A DNA stretch of 64,000 nucleotides from Isosphaera pallida ATCC 43644 (GTDB lineage Bacteria; Planctomycetota; Planctomycetia; Isosphaerales; Isosphaeraceae), in contig NC_014962.1 in NCBI RefSeq assembly GCF_000186345.1, forward strand, positions 4,182,450 through 4,246,449, given 5' to 3'. The translations under genes were made by a program, and so were the position numbers. The notes under the pieces are model-generated. The model ran no database searches, was not told the DNA's origin, and worked only from the letters and a program-made list of their open reading frames with translations. Shown here one piece after another: positions 49,211-55,814 of the stretch (position 1 is its first letter; each line of letters starts with the position of its first letter).

Positions 49211-50848
49211 TTAGTCCTCCTCGTCGGACGAAATGGCGACGGCCTGCTCCAGGCGGTCCTTAAGTGAGCGAGCCACCTTGCGGGGACTACCGGCCCTTAA
49301 CAACGCCCCGGAAACCGCCACCCGACGGGCTCCGGCCTCCAACACGTCGTCGAGGTTCGACTCGTCGATTCCCCCTAGGGCAAACCAGGGCAGCGTGGTC
49401 GTTTCGGCGGCGTGGCGCACCAAGCCTAGCCCCACGATTTCCGAGGAGTCGAACGACTTGGTGCCGCTAGGGAAGACGGGGCCGACCCCTAGGTAATTCG
49501 CCGCGTCCAGCACCGCGCGGCGGATCTGGCTCGGATCGTGGGTCGAAACGCCGATCAAGGGAGCGCCTCCCAGTAAACGGCGCGCGTCTCGCACCGTCAA
49601 ATCGGTCTGGCCAAGATGAACCCCATCCGCGCCTGCCAGACGCGCAAGATCGCAACGGTCGTTGACCACGAAGGTCGCCCCCGCCCGAGCCGTCAGTAGC
49701 CGCACCTCGCGCGCCCGTTCCAGCCAGACACGATCCTCCACGCCCTTCTCTCGAAGCTGGACCACGTCCACCCCACCTTCCAAAGCTTCGCCCACCACCC
49801 AGGTCAAATCCCCCAGAGTCGGCAGCCCCCCCACCAGGAGATACAAACGGGCCTTTCCCAACCCACGCTGCGAACGGATCGCCGTCGCCACCATCTTCTC
49901 CAAGGTGTACACGTCGTATCGTAACACTTCAAAACGACCTGACAACCAAACGTTGCGGATTTTGCAATACTCTTCCAGCGTCCGCAACGCTTCGCCAAGA
50001 CGTTTGAAGTTGGCGGTGAGAACGGCGCGGGGGTGTTCGCGAAGGCGTTCCTCCGGGGTCATGATATGGGTTCCGACGTCGCCTGGGGTGTCGCGGGCAG
50101 CCAGGAGGGTCTGGTCATCCAGACCGGCGAGGGCTTGGGAGAGGCGGTGTCGCACATCCTTGAGGCGGCGGGTGAGCATCGGATCGTCCAAGGCGAACCG
50201 GACGTAGTCCTCGATGACCCTCAGCGCCTCGCGGGCTCGGTTGCCCGAAGCGTCCAGGATACGGGCGAGTTCGTGGTCGTCGGCGGCGTCCCCTAGGTCG
50301 AGGCGGAACGGCTCGTCCTCGACCTCGATTGGCCCAATGTCCTCGTGGATCAGGGTTCGGATTGCCTCCACTAGCGCTTCGACCTGCACACCGGCCCGAA
50401 CGAGTAGGGTGCGGAGCGGCAGCGAGTACTCCACCAACGCCAGGAGGAGATGTTCTGAACTCACCGGATGATTGCGGTCCCAGCGTCGGGCGATTGACCG
50501 GGCTTCGTTGAGAACGGCCCGGAAATCCAACGAGTCAGGCGGCTCGTTGGTTGGCTTGCCGGGGGCCTCGGCGTCGCGGGGCGGTTCGCCGGGGACGACG
50601 TTGGGTTCCGCGACCGATTCGTCGGGGCCCACCCTATCACTGTTGGCGACGCTAAACCCGAGCGCTGAGAGCAATTCCTCGGCACGCAGACCGTGATCGG
50701 CGAGCAGTTCGCCGGCTTTGCTCTCAGGTTGATCGGCCAGAGCCGCCAGCAGGTCGCCCGGCTCGGTCAGGGGCGAGGACCGAGCCTGCGCTCGGCGGTG
50801 GGCTTGATCAACCAGACGTTGAGCGGCGGGGGTGAGGGCGTCTCGCAT
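49211..50848 (-). CDS. thiE: thiamine-phosphate synthase with Clp_N-like and ThiD2 domains
   Basis: A 545-aa fusion. Residues 5-63 and 110-168 are two Clp-N-like helical repeats (LTPAAQRLVDQAHRRAQ; HPVSSEHLLLALVEYSLPLR), normally seen in ClpA/B/C chaperones. Residues about 193-325 (ASGNRAREALRVIEDYVRFA, ANFKRLGEALRTLEEYCK) match the ThiD2 domain, an HMP-phosphate kinase often fused to ThiE in cyanobacteria. Residues about 334-535 are ThiE with VVQLREKG, FVVNDRCDLA, GADGVHLGQTDL, LGVGPVFPSGTKS and FALGGIDESN. ThiE couples HMP-PP and thiazole phosphate into thiamine phosphate. The start is uncertain; the ATG at MRDALTP was chosen because it opens the first repeat. The Clp_N part is unusual here. 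Confidence 0.88.
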   Translation of the reverse strand: MRDALTPAAQRLVDQAHRRAQARSSPLTEPGDLLAALADQPESKAGELLADHGLRAEELLSALGFSVANSDRVGPDESVAEPNVVPGEPPRDAEAPGKPTNEPPDSLDFRAVLNEARSIARRWDRNHPVSSEHLLLALVEYSLPLRTLLVRAGVQVEALVEAIRTLIHEDIGPIEVEDEPFRLDLGDAADDHELARILDASGNRAREALRVIEDYVRFALDDPMLTRRLKDVRHRLSQALAGLDDQTLLAARDTPGDVGTHIMTPEERLREHPRAVLTANFKRLGEALRTLEEYCKIRNVWLSGRFEVLRYDVYTLEKMVATAIRSQRGLGKARLYLLVGGLPTLGDLTWVVGEALEGGVDVVQLREKGVEDRVWLERAREVRLLTARAGATFVVNDRCDLARLAGADGVHLGQTDLTVRDARRLLGGAPLIGVSTHDPSQIRRAVLDAANYLGVGPVFPSGTKSFDSSEIVGLGLVRHAAETTTLPWFALGGIDESNLDDVLEAGARRVAVSGALLRAGSPRKVARSLKDRLEQAVAISSDEED

Positions 50849-51230
50849 GGCCTTATTCTGACAAGGAGGACGCGGTGACGAAAGGGGGTTGAAATGGGTT
50901 CGGCGGACCATCGGAGTGAAGTGCGGCAATCCATTTTGAAGCGAGCGCTGACGCCGGGCAAGCGACCAGGCGACTCACCCGGTCGATCCTCGGCCCTTTC
51001 CCTGCTAGCCAAACTGGCTGGCTCGACCAACCAACCCCAACCCGGTCTCGCCAACTTTGACGTTGAACACGTCAAGCCCCCTCTTGAATCCCGAGTCCGG
51101 GATGCCCAAGATGAAACCGATTCGCGGACGTGGTTGCGGGAACCGTGTCGTCTTGACTCGTTCCACGCGCGAAGGCTTCCACTAGACTGCCATCTCCGTT
51201 TCCCTCCCCGTTTCGCTCGGAGTTTCAACA
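50849..51230. other. non-coding divergent gap
   Basis: About 380 bp between thiE and the peroxidase gene. The thiE frame stays open for 27 codons, but the residues are not convincing. I looked for a TPP riboswitch on the minus strand and saw none. Confidence 0.45.
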
Positions 51231-51803
51231 ATGCTCAAACCTCTGCTGATGGTGGCCGCCCTGGCCCTTCTGACTCTTCCGCTTGGTCTGGCGGTCGCCG
51301 CCGAACAACCCAGTCTTGACCCACCCAGCTGCGTCCTGGACCTCAAGGCCGAGTCGATCGACGGCGACACGATCGATCTGGCGTCCTACAAGGGTGAGGT
51401 GCTGTTGATCGTCAACACCGCCAGCCAATGCGGATACACTCCTCAGTATAAAGGACTTGAAGCGCTCTATCGCACGTACAAGGATCAAGGTTTCAAGGTC
51501 CTGGCTTTTCCCTGCAACGATTTTGGTGCCCAGGAACCCGGCGACAACGCCCAGATCAAGGATTTCTGCACTAAACGCTATTCCGTAACCTTCCCGGTGT
51601 TCAGCAAGATTGTTGTCAAGGGAGCCAATAAGCATCCGGTTTACCAAGTTCTCACCCAAAACGGCGGTGAAATCCGCTGGAATTTTACTAAGTTCCTAAT
51701 CGACCGCGAAGGCAAGGTCGTCAAGCGGTTCGAGCCGGGGGTTGACCCCACCGACGAAGAGCTTGTCAAGGCGATTGAGTCGGCGTTGGCTCAGGGCAAG
51801 TGA
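51231..51803 (+). CDS. exported glutathione-peroxidase-family thiol peroxidase
   Basis: A 190-aa peroxidase with a signal peptide (LLMVAALALLTLPLGLAVAA). It should act outside the cytoplasm, reducing peroxides with thioredoxin-like donors. The catalytic Cys67 is in NTASQCGYTPQY, and Trp150-Asn151 complete the site in IRWNFTKFL. The usual Gln in the CNQFG motif is Asp97 here (PCNDFGAQEPG). Length is normal once the signal is removed. A cysteine for an intramolecular disulfide (Cys95 or Cys113) is available. The gene is monocistronic, with an inverted repeat downstream. Confidence 0.92.
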   Translation: MLKPLLMVAALALLTLPLGLAVAAEQPSLDPPSCVLDLKAESIDGDTIDLASYKGEVLLIVNTASQCGYTPQYKGLEALYRTYKDQGFKVLAFPCNDFGAQEPGDNAQIKDFCTKRYSVTFPVFSKIVVKGANKHPVYQVLTQNGGEIRWNFTKFLIDREGKVVKRFEPGVDPTDEELVKAIESALAQGK

Positions 51804-52032: not shown

Positions 52033-54072
52033 TCAACGTTCTCGAACCGCCAAGGACTTCAACTCAGCGTCCTTGGATGTGTTGGGGCGGGGACGAAACA
52101 AAGGTGTTCCAGTGCTCGGATATAACGAGGGCAATGATTCGGGGTTGAGGACAATCTCCTCGCCCACCCGCAGTCCTTCGATGACCTCGGCGTAAGTGGC
52201 GTTGGAAAGACCAATCTTGACCTGACGCCAGGTCGCGCGGGCTTGGGTGGCGTTGTTGGTCGCGCTGACTGCCACAAACGGCTCGTTGTCTAGGTAATGG
52301 ATCGCTTGCACCGGCACCCGCACTACCCCAGGCCGAAGCGCCACGTTGAAGGCCGCCTTAGCGGTCAGTCCTGGCTTAAGAAGTTTCAGGTCGGCGGCAG
52401 CGTCGATCTGAACCCGCGCGTTGTACACTTTGACGTCGCTGAGCGAACCCTGGGCCGGGGCGGGGATCAAGGTTACATCCAGCACCCGACCATTGAAGAT
52501 CCGGTCCTTGACGGCGTCCACGCGGATCGACACCGTTTGGCCTGGAACAATTCGAGAAATCTTCGATTCGTTGATCCGAACCTTGAGAATCAGCTCTGAG
52601 GGGTCTGGCACGCTGAAGATAGGTTGACCCTGGCGAACGATCGCGCCGGGCTCGATTCGATAATCGATCGAACCCCAAAAATTAGTCTCATTGACGTAAC
52701 TGAGGATGCCGTCCCGGGGCGCGACGATGACGCAGTTGGCGATCGCCTTTTCGATCCGCTGCAAACGCTGCTCCTCCTGACGTAACACCGACTCTTTGGA
52801 GAGCAGGTCGGATTTGATCGCCTCCGATTTCGCCTGGTATTCCTTGAGGATGCGGGGCGCGGTGAAGTCTTCCAGCTGGGTTCGCATTCCGAGCGCCTCG
52901 CGGAGGTTGATCCGACAGCGTTCCAGGGTGAGCCGATCGGCCAGCTCCTGGTTTTCGGGCTGGAGTTTCTTGGCGACCACCCCCAACGACCATTGGTAGT
53001 TGCGCTCGGCCTGAAACAGCAGGTCGCGGCATTGCTTGATGTAGGTCTCGATCGCCTGGCGATCTTGTTCTAGCACTCCCTCGAGATACTCCTTCATCGC
53101 CAACTCATTGACTTCCAGCGCGATACGCACCTGGTTATAGTTGGAGCGGGCTTCCTCGACCTTGATCTTTTGGTTCTCTAGTTCCTCGCGGAACGCGGCC
53201 GAGTCGAGTTCACAGACCACTTCGCCCTTACGCACGAAGCTCCCTTCGGGCTTGATGTCCAGGATGGTTGTGGATCCGCTTCGTTCGGTGGACCCGAACA
53301 TGCCTCCACCTCCACCCATTCCCATCGCGCCTTCGGAGCTGGCGGTGAGGCTCACTGTCGAAACCATCCCGACCGTCGGAACGGCGGTGTGGGGTTGAAC
53401 CTTCAGGTTGAAGCTCTGGATGTTGGGTTTGGGCACAGTCAACCCCAGGCCACTCATGCCCCCCAGCCGTCCGCCACCACCCGCCATGAAGGCGTTGCCG
53501 CCGGCCGCCCCCATGCTTCCAGCGCCTCCCGACGAGCCGCCTGAGCCGCCCGAGCCACCTAAGCCGGAGCCGCCTGAGCCGCCTGAGCCGCCCGAGCCGG
53601 AGCCGCCCGAGGCGCTCGCCATGTTCACGCTGGTGTTGGACCCGCCGCCGGAACGCGCAGCCCCACCCATGCCGCCGGAACGTCCTCCCGGACGACCTCC
53701 CGGGGAACCCACGTTCATCCCCATCATCATCCCGCCGCTGCCACCCGAGGAGATCGGCCCGAGGATCGCTTCGACCTCGCAGATCACGGTGGAACCGCTT
53801 TCGGCTTCGATGACGCCGCTTTCAACCACTTCCACCGCCACATCGCCCACATCGACGACATGAAGTCGAAGGGGTTCGCGGCTTTCCTCAACGCCGGAAC
53901 CCACCTTCGAGAACCAAAACACCGCCACGCCGCCGGCGACAACCAAGAACGCCGTGGCACGCCCAAGCCAACTCCACCAACGACCACGCGCCTTTGAGGA
54001 GCGGGACATCAGAACGGGTCTCGGCTCAACCGGAATCCTGGGTAATGGAACCACCGTCGTCGAAGCCGACAT
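52033..54072 (-). CDS. HlyD/RND-type periplasmic adaptor protein with Gly-rich insert
   Basis: A 679-aa membrane-fusion protein. One membrane anchor (about 37-55) leads to a barrel/lipoyl region (VVDVGDVAVEVVESGVIEAE; later TTILDIKPEGSFVRKGEVV). A long coiled-coil hairpin spans about 288-455 (FREELENQKIKVEEARSNY; KESVLRQEEQRLQRIEKAI), followed by the second lipoyl half (VIVAPRDGILSYVNE) and barrel domains to about 650. These proteins link an inner-membrane pump to outer parts. No pump gene is adjacent; the MFS gene 310 bp upstream on the same strand is a possible partner. Residues about 103-266 form a Gly/Ser/Met-rich insert inside the first lipoyl half. The ATG has GGGAGG 9 nt upstream. Confidence 0.88.
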   Translation of the reverse strand: MSASTTVVPLPRIPVEPRPVLMSRSSKARGRWWSWLGRATAFLVVAGGVAVFWFSKVGSGVEESREPLRLHVVDVGDVAVEVVESGVIEAESGSTVICEVEAILGPISSGGSGGMMMGMNVGSPGGRPGGRSGGMGGAARSGGGSNTSVNMASASGGSGSGGSGGSGGSGLGGSGGSGGSSGGAGSMGAAGGNAFMAGGGGRLGGMSGLGLTVPKPNIQSFNLKVQPHTAVPTVGMVSTVSLTASSEGAMGMGGGGGMFGSTERSGSTTILDIKPEGSFVRKGEVVCELDSAAFREELENQKIKVEEARSNYNQVRIALEVNELAMKEYLEGVLEQDRQAIETYIKQCRDLLFQAERNYQWSLGVVAKKLQPENQELADRLTLERCRINLREALGMRTQLEDFTAPRILKEYQAKSEAIKSDLLSKESVLRQEEQRLQRIEKAIANCVIVAPRDGILSYVNETNFWGSIDYRIEPGAIVRQGQPIFSVPDPSELILKVRINESKISRIVPGQTVSIRVDAVKDRIFNGRVLDVTLIPAPAQGSLSDVKVYNARVQIDAAADLKLLKPGLTAKAAFNVALRPGVVRVPVQAIHYLDNEPFVAVSATNNATQARATWRQVKIGLSNATYAEVIEGLRVGEEIVLNPESLPSLYPSTGTPLFRPRPNTSKDAELKSLAVRER
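53275..53766 (-). repeat. Gly/Ser/Met-rich low-complexity coding segment of the adaptor gene
   Basis: The insert encodes repeats of GGSGGSG, GGMGG, MMMGM and similar. It is in frame and has no stop codons. On the plus strand it reads as Pro/Glu-rich sequence, which is a shadow. Its repeats suggest growth by slippage. Confidence 0.8.
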
Positions 54073-54386: not shown

Positions 54387-55814
54387 TCAAAAGGTGTCGC
54401 CGGCGATCGGCGGGTTTGCTCGCCAACTGATTAAGTTGAAGGCGAAGCCAACCACCAGCGCCAACAAAGCCACGCCGATCGAACCGGCCAGCATCGCCTG
54501 AGGGGTTCCCAACCAGGAGGCCAGCACCCCGGAGACCAACGCCCCCGAGGGAACCGAGGCTGAGAACATGATCATCCAGACGCCCATGATCCGCCCGCGG
54601 ATCGCGTCGGGCACGGCCGCCTGAATCACGGTCTGGGTGGTGGAGTAGACCATGATTGCCCCGCAACCCACCACGCTCAGGCAGGCCATCGCCGTAGCCA
54701 GGGCCAAGCGCGATCCCGAGGCTCCCCCCGCTACCAATGGCGGCACCACCGCAGCCGCGGCCAGACCTACGGCGAACAACACCAGACCCAAGGCGATCAC
54801 CTGAAGACGGTCCCGTCCCGGACCCAGCGAGGCGACAATCAACGCGCCCAGGGTCGCCCCCACTCCTGAACTCGCTAGCAACAGGCTGTAGCCGATCTCG
54901 CGGACCCCGAGGACCACCTGGGCGTAACTGGGGATCATCGCCGAGTAGCCCATTCCCAACACCCCGAAACCGCTGAGCATCAGGAACAGCCCGCCCACCA
55001 GCCGATCCCGACCGAGATGGGCGAATCCCGCTAGCGCGCCCTTCCAACCTTTGGACGCCGTCGCGTTGTCGCCCGCTCGCGCGTTGGGTGGTTTAGGTCG
55101 GACCCGCATTAGTCCCACGGCGGTCATGGCCGCGGTGAAGCTCACCGCATTCAGAACGAAGCAGGCTGGCGCGCCCAGGGTCGCCAGCACCACCCCGGCC
55201 AGGCTGGGACCAACCACCCGCGAAGCGTTGAACAATCCAGTGTTCAACGCGATGGCGTTCATCAAATGGCCGCGACCCACCACGTCGTAAATCAATACCT
55301 GACGACTCGGCATCTCGAAGGTCACGCAGACCCGCGCTACCACTAGCGCCGCTAACATCAGGGGCACCGGCAGCCAACCAATCAGCGCCAGCGCTGCTAG
55401 CGTTGAGGCGACCACGAATTGGCCGAACTGCATTGCCAGCACCATCCGCCGGGGCGTCACTTGGTCGGCCACCATCCCGGCCAACAGACCGACCACCACG
55501 CCTGGCATGAGGTTGGCGGCCTCGACCAGCCCCAGCATCCGCTCATCGCGGGTCGTCTCGAAGACGATCCATGCCACCGCCGCCCCTTGAAGCCACGTCC
55601 CCACCAGACTAATCCCGTGTCCAATGAAGAACTTGCGGTACTCCAGATTCCCCAGCGCCTCGAAGGTCCGCGGGACGCGCGGGGAGGACCCAGAGAAACC
55701 AACCTCAGACGACTCGTCCGCCTCCGCCTCCGCTTCCGCTTCCAAAGTGGCGGGGACCGTGACCGGAGCGGAGCGGCGAGGGGAGCCGGAGGCAACCGGA
55801 CTTGTTGTGGACAT
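54387..55814 (-). CDS. MFS transporter (MFS_3/EntS-like)
   Basis: A 475-aa transporter with about 12 membrane helices after a 45-residue disordered N-terminus rich in Glu/Ala. The opening FEALGNLEYRKFFIGHGISLVGTWLQGAAVAW is the family hallmark of the EntS/MFS_3 group (shown by ALGNLEYRKFFIGHGISL). The motif-A-like loop is GMVADQVTPRRMVLAMQ. The substrate may be a siderophore or drug but cannot be read. It lies upstream of the adaptor gene on the same strand, about 310 bp away. Confidence 0.87.
   Translation of the reverse strand: MSTTSPVASGSPRRSAPVTVPATLEAEAEAEADESSEVGFSGSSPRVPRTFEALGNLEYRKFFIGHGISLVGTWLQGAAVAWIVFETTRDERMLGLVEAANLMPGVVVGLLAGMVADQVTPRRMVLAMQFGQFVVASTLAALALIGWLPVPLMLAALVVARVCVTFEMPSRQVLIYDVVGRGHLMNAIALNTGLFNASRVVGPSLAGVVLATLGAPACFVLNAVSFTAAMTAVGLMRVRPKPPNARAGDNATASKGWKGALAGFAHLGRDRLVGGLFLMLSGFGVLGMGYSAMIPSYAQVVLGVREIGYSLLLASSGVGATLGALIVASLGPGRDRLQVIALGLVLFAVGLAAAAVVPPLVAGGASGSRLALATAMACLSVVGCGAIMVYSTTQTVIQAAVPDAIRGRIMGVWMIMFSASVPSGALVSGVLASWLGTPQAMLAGSIGVALLALVVGFAFNLISWRANPPIAGDTF

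Follow-up and report, generated by a model that had tools for sequence, protein, structure and literature searches.

A conserved core peptide inside a low-complexity lipoyl-domain insert of Isosphaeraceae periplasmic adaptors

Analysis of a window of 64,000 nucleotides from Isosphaera pallida ATCC 43644, located on contig C2 of a genome of 5,529,304 bases in two contigs, revealed a periplasmic adaptor whose first lipoyl half is interrupted by a long insert. Within this insert, between two variable low-complexity tracts, we found a peptide of about 20 residues that is conserved across a single clade of adaptors of the family Isosphaeraceae. The peptide was missed in a preliminary description of the window, and its presence changes the interpretation of the insert. 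We propose, tentatively and with slightly more doubt than confidence, that the insert is a tethered latch: its core would dock on the lipoyl/hairpin-base region, either of the protomer that carries it or of a neighbouring one, and so stabilise or gate the ring of adaptors. The lipoyl domain of a pump adaptor is usually regarded as a compact and conserved building block; an insertion of 130-248 residues that runs through a whole family and keeps one short peptide would offer a testable handle on how adaptor rings hold together or gate, and is a warning that stretches labelled "low-complexity" can hide a conserved functional motif.

The adaptor and its interrupted lipoyl domain

The adaptor, P0001, is encoded by a 679-aa open reading frame on the minus strand (52033-54072), and its Pfam domains and fold matches place it in the HlyD/membrane-fusion family. 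It passes the cut-offs of PF13437 (44.1 bits, cut-off 22.2) and PF16576 (35.9 bits, cut-off 30). Models of narrower scope do not classify it as an RND-type adaptor (RND_mfp TIGR01730, 83.7 bits, below the curated cut-off of 94.9), as MacA (equivalog model NF008606, 40.4 bits against a cut-off of 342) or as EmrA/EmrK (TIGR00998, 61.4 bits against a curated cut-off of 390.8). In the AlphaFold2 model, a helix at the N-terminus precedes a lipoyl domain interrupted by a hairpin of two helices, each about 75 residues long, and beta domains make up the C-terminal part; this order of elements, in which a lipoyl domain split by an alpha-hairpin is followed by beta-barrel and membrane-proximal domains, is that of the HlyD/membrane-fusion fold and matches MacA, EmrA and BesA. 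Judged by its predicted fold, P0001 is an ordinary adaptor.

All features of the gene are given here on the minus strand. The N-terminal helix of the model (residues 32-53, 53914-53979) is likely a membrane anchor, given its hydrophobic sequence. Lipoyl half 1 opens with strand 1 and a CxVEA motif (residues 93-102, 53767-53796; modelled strand 93-97), in which C98, V100 and E101 are invariant in 24 orthologues. The insert follows, beginning with a repetitive first tract rich in Gly, Ser, Met and Ala (residues 103-213, 53434-53766), where pLDDT is below 50 for most of 107-208. The conserved core peptide PKPNIQSFNLKVQPHTAVPTV (residues 214-234, 53371-53433) was delimited by its pLDDT, its invariant residues and its presence in orthologues, and is followed by the second low-complexity tract (residues 235-265, 53278-53370; pLDDT below 50 at 239-259). 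Strands 2 and 3 of lipoyl half 1 come next (residues 266-291, 53200-53277; modelled strands 267-273 and 285-289), succeeded by the alpha-helical hairpin (residues 292-445, 52738-53199; helices 292-367 and 373-445) and lipoyl half 2 (residues 446-492, 52597-52737; strands between 448 and 489). Two further cysteines stand out, C447, which like C98 never varies among the 24 orthologues, and C348, a residue peculiar to the insert clade (21/24); disulphide or structural roles are possible for these three cysteines in P0001.

The preliminary description had located a low-complexity insert between two strands of the first lipoyl half at 53275-53766, that is, residues 103-266 of the minus-strand frame (residue 103 starts at 53766 and residue 266 at 53277). 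The model bears this position out, with a 163-residue insert (103-265) lying between strands 93-97 and 267-273, and the idea that a normally compact domain is split here also holds, since the insert is conserved and family-specific and the same domain is compact in relatives. The low complexity is equally real: the best 100-residue stretch of P0001 holds 75 Gly, Ser or Met residues, a count that none of 10,000 shuffles of the same protein reached (maximum 45), and the next of the 297 stop-to-stop ORFs in the window has only 42 per 100-residue stretch. The insert was, however, too simply described as about 160 residues of repeats, because residues 214-234 in its middle are not of low complexity and are conserved. 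Tandem Repeats Finder reported arrays with periods of 9, 24 and 33 inside 53534-53615. The frame of the insert is stop-free, and its codon-position GC differs from that of the flanks mainly at position 2, because Gly, Ser and Ala codons demand it. Antisense to the repeats, a 151-aa open frame of PEPPEPPEP type (53408-53863, plus strand) is most likely a mirror of the coding repeats and no gene.

Structural comparison of P0001 with solved adaptors gave the highest Z, 16.8, for BesA of Borrelia (rmsd 3.7 over 254 residues), a small adaptor that lacks a long hairpin and is identical to P0001 at only 16% of the aligned positions. MacA of MacAB-TolC has the same fold order (5nik_D, Foldseek E 4.3e-18, Z 16.2, rmsd 7.3 over 332 residues) and, of all chains with a solved structure, is closest in sequence (9qgy_G, E 2.7e-19), but an insert like that of P0001 was not seen in the sequence matches. 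The hairpin adaptor EmrA of EmrAB-TolC (4tko) was matched by Foldseek with E 1.5e-18. Closer at hand are the no-insert paralogues of the Isosphaeraceae (for example L063, and L002 of the window's own genome), which share about 32-37% body identity with P0001 and, by alignment, the same domain order; at the site of the insert they have a QVEGSTTI-type turn, with neither insert nor core.

A conserved core between drifting arms

The core has the consensus [KR]PxIRSFxYxVxPHxPLR over about 20 residues (215-232 in P0001). It was found in every orthologue with sequence across that stretch, namely 37 of 37 distinct orthologues and all 15 further loci read, some of which repeat genomes already counted. 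Strict core patterns missed four loci (L053, L074, L118 and L128), each of which has the core by eye or with a wider pattern. P216, S220 and F221 are invariant among 24 orthologues; among the 37 distinct ones, position 219 is R in 34, K in two and Q only in the window protein, position 223 is Y in 31, M in four and L in two, and position 228 has either H (23) or Y (14). With R219Q, Y223L and R232P, the core of P0001 itself is among the most divergent, and together with the long branch of this protein (1.21) this divergence suggests that the module may be relaxed in Isosphaera pallida.

The arms on either side evolve differently. Among ten closely related pairs, identity in the first arm ranges from 0.44 to 0.78 and in the core from 0.67 to 1.00. 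In three of the ten pairs the core is less conserved than the body of the protein (0.67 versus 0.88, 0.78 versus 0.88 and 0.78 versus 0.80), which counts against the latch proposal. The whole insert measures 130-248 residues in the 24 orthologues with full or nearly full coverage, the first arm 75-196 aa in the 32 orthologues with both ends covered and the second arm 29-66 aa in 37, and across the 24 the arm composition drifts freely among Gly, Ser, Ala and Thr. In relatives the insert is basic, with 7-20 K/R and 0-6 D/E and the lowest K/R count in the window protein, and it could bind acidic polymers of the envelope. Many orthologues (for example L017, L030 and L032) have a second arm rich in RGG/GGRGG motifs, which are missing from that of the window protein.

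This composition bears on the earlier suggestion that Met-rich clusters of the insert contact copper. The window insert does contain 13 Met, including an MMMGM cluster; across the 24 orthologues, however, Met varies from 0 to 13 (0 in L040), Cys never occurs and there is at most one His, so that conserved Met, Cys or His ligands of a copper-binding segment are absent, and the Pfam-scanned neighbours include no metal-efflux gene. We therefore set the copper proposal aside and regard binding of copper or another metal as very improbable.

A second insert-bearing copy in one genome separates the two components of the module. This locus, L114 (G001:C210, 643 aa frame), keeps VIRSFSYRVSPHVPLRGP while its arms are short, the first being of about 61 residues by eye, Arg/Ser-rich and free of glycine repeats. 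Core and arms are thus separable, the core being kept and the repeats dispensable; the tracts resemble tethers, and it is probably the core that does the work. The same observation weighs on a different explanation, in which the glycine-rich arms themselves do the work, filtering cargo as a disordered brush or plug within the lipoyl ring or around it. The arms are long in every orthologue with both ends covered, and the lipoyl ring is a known place of gating, through the Gln209 loop of MacA and the Gly220 loop of Spr0693 (PMC5768738). On the other hand, L114 retains the core without a glycine brush, the arms exchange Gly, Ser, Ala and Thr freely, and the known gating loops appear, by our own placing from the residue numbers in PMC5768738, to lie in the second lipoyl half, away from the turn that carries the insert. 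We consider a filtering brush improbable.

A functionless expansion by repeat slippage at a tolerant turn seems to us about as improbable, or slightly more so. Tandem arrays are present in the insert DNA, and the turn does tolerate insertion, as four loci (L003, L112, L113 and L117) carry short inserts of roughly 12-17 aa by eye there. Neutral expansion would nevertheless not keep the P-x-[ILV]-[RKQ]-S-F core throughout the family, nor would its product be predicted to be ordered. This explanation is largely refuted for the core, and may still fit the exact length and composition of the arms. The short inserts, which lack the core, mark the same lipoyl turn as an insertion hot spot.

Predicted order distinguishes the core from the arms as well. 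In the AlphaFold2 model of P0001 (46 sequences), block means of pLDDT reach 92 (211-220) and 96 (221-230), and in that of the Singulisphaera acidiphila orthologue the core blocks average 96 and 88 (191-210), with both arms mostly below 50 in each protein; both models place the same one-turn helix on [QR]SF[NS]. The core peptide is thus predicted to be ordered, and in our judgement a short strandless segment amid disorder would seldom receive such values unless packed against something; a high pLDDT does not, for its part, establish a function. The surface loop envisaged in the preliminary description is in part retained, flexible arms being probable in both orthologues, but it left the conserved core out of account.

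Distribution, descent and gene neighbourhood

Homologues of P0001 were detected at 1e-30 in 54 of 59 related genomes. A search of the order covered 45 genomes, all of them Isosphaeraceae, and every one gave a match at 1e-60; the core was read in the DNA of 43 (the window genome, 29 loci and 13 genomes), and for the other two (G059 and G060) no sequence of the insert stretch was obtained. The occurrence of the same insert in independent genomes rules out an assembly error, one of two outcomes that had been named as fatal to the insert. The other, that homologues lack it, fails within the family (43 of 45 carry it) and holds outside as far as we searched. In a search of 148 genomes of the class (38 of the family, 110 outside), 13 of the 110 outsiders matched at 1e-90, a threshold that could conceal weaker relatives, and all 13 matches started at model position 268 or later, past the insert. 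One genome outside the family (G055) matched from residue 204 and was considered as a carrier; this proved to be a chance alignment of the N-terminus, and the sequence, once read, has no insert. The two nearest homologues in the window's own genome are without the long insert; nothing is inserted in L002, and some 17 residues occupy the same turn in L003. Scanning genome contigs with P0001 alone as query found no relative, and a scan with alignment A1 did work; one of its three patterns, CxVEA..G, favours insert-bearers, and its ratio of carriers to non-carriers is uninformative. Five draft genomes (G022, G017, G030, G002 and G021) have one or two in-frame stops inside the matched frame, possibly because match ends overrun the gene or because of draft errors.

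In a maximum-likelihood tree of 68 rows built from the sequence that follows the insert, and without five paralogue rows missed by the cutting pattern (L064, L085, L077, L076 and L080), the 37 insert-bearers fall on one side of a single branch (support 100/99, 200/200 bootstrap trees), the window protein sitting on its long branch within the group. P0001 thus belongs to the insert-bearing Isosphaeraceae adaptors, which we define here as a single clade whose insert between the first two lipoyl strands contains a P-x-[ILV]-[RKQ]-S-F core. Taken jointly with the latch proposal, an origin of the insert on one occasion, in one adaptor lineage of Isosphaeraceae, is a reading on which we remain almost evenly divided.

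The insert-bearing gene of relatives has among its neighbours genes for superoxide dismutase, a matrixin-like protease, glutathione peroxidase and ThiD2-ThiE, not all of which occur in each stretch. The window retains the glutathione peroxidase (51231-51803) and ThiD2-ThiE (49211-50929) genes, and this shared gene order supports the orthology of the insert-bearing genes. In the product of the latter gene (minus strand), an N-terminal Clp_N-like stretch (PF02861) and ThiD2 (PF17792) are joined to a thiamine-phosphate synthase (PF02581); the same three-part fusion occurs in Singulisphaera (L049:10812-12662), and the Clp_N part is odd for a thiamine enzyme.

No constant transporter neighbour of the insert-bearing adaptor emerged from the 27 stretches compared. 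The MFS_3 gene near the window adaptor (54387-55814) forms its own separate cluster among them, and the Pfam scan of neighbours in the window gave MFS_3, Gpx, ThiD2-ThiE and a histidine kinase. The pair that marks a MacAB system, ABC ATPase and MacB-like permease, does not adjoin the window gene, which differs in this from MacA; in several relatives it is the no-insert paralogue that adjoins an ABC ATPase (c7, 8/27 stretches) and a MacB-like permease (c5, 10/27). The window's own genome has outer-membrane channel genes (PF02321), with one match less than 1 kb from the paralogue L002.

How the core could act

The absence of a constant transporter neighbour implies that a partner of the insert-bearing adaptor must be found in trans, and is compatible with a reading in which a separate protein (inner-membrane transporter, outer-membrane channel or other envelope protein) binds the core as a short linear motif and the arms serve as a fishing line. 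At 75-196 and 29-66 residues, the arms look far longer than a reach to the adaptor's own lipoyl domain would require, and a core bound to a partner protein would show equal conservation, which counts against the step from conservation to a latch. Against partner binding, AlphaFold2 orders the core partner-free in two orthologues. This reading seems to us rather unlikely.

In the tethered latch that we tentatively prefer, two flexible arms would extend from the turn that joins strands 1 and 2 in lipoyl half 1 and carry the core of about 20 residues. The core would be the conserved working part, and the arms, needing only length, solubility and flexibility, could drift and expand by repeat slippage. 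Most likely the core would settle on the lipoyl/hairpin-base region, either in its own adaptor or in the next protomer of the hexamer, and from there would brace or gate the lipoyl ring where the helical tunnel opens. We infer the choice between cis and trans docking and the bracing or gating role from these observations, the docking site more weakly still. Since the arms seem longer than a contact in cis would need, docking in trans or on a partner is still conceivable. A more specific form, with the hexameric lipoyl ring closed or braced by six copies of the core, each borne by a pair of long disordered arms and probably swapped over to the next protomer, strikes us as doubtful.

Covariation gives a weak hint of where the core might dock. 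Of seven regions compared with the core in 27 rows, the hairpin base (292-314) alone rose above chance, with an uncorrected p of 0.012 that fails correction for seven regions and is confounded by kinship; the covarying pairs are H/Y228 with C/A287 and with W/Y311. An earlier run with 37 rows likewise yielded a weak hint of docking at most, and clade-specific positions are scattered across the hairpin, barrel and membrane-proximal domains.

In the open-licence literature covered (titles, the beginnings of abstracts and passages of some papers), we found no description of such an insert or of a tethered-latch gate in membrane-fusion proteins, and as far as these searches went a conserved tethered peptide within lipoyl half 1 is undescribed. 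Known systems make a latch plausible. Lipoyl-domain loops make the gating ring of MacA (Gln209 loop) and Spr0693 (Gly220 loop) (PMC5768738; PMC8277102), and in EmrA, which has no such ring, a long C-terminal coil turns back against the lipoyl domain next to it, with its end helix packed on the lower hairpin (PMC13139468). The likeness to these systems is one of place and role, not of homology. The EmrA coil, docked in this way, is the nearest functional analogue that we found; its tether is C-terminal, after the beta-barrel, whereas that of P0001 lies within lipoyl half 1.
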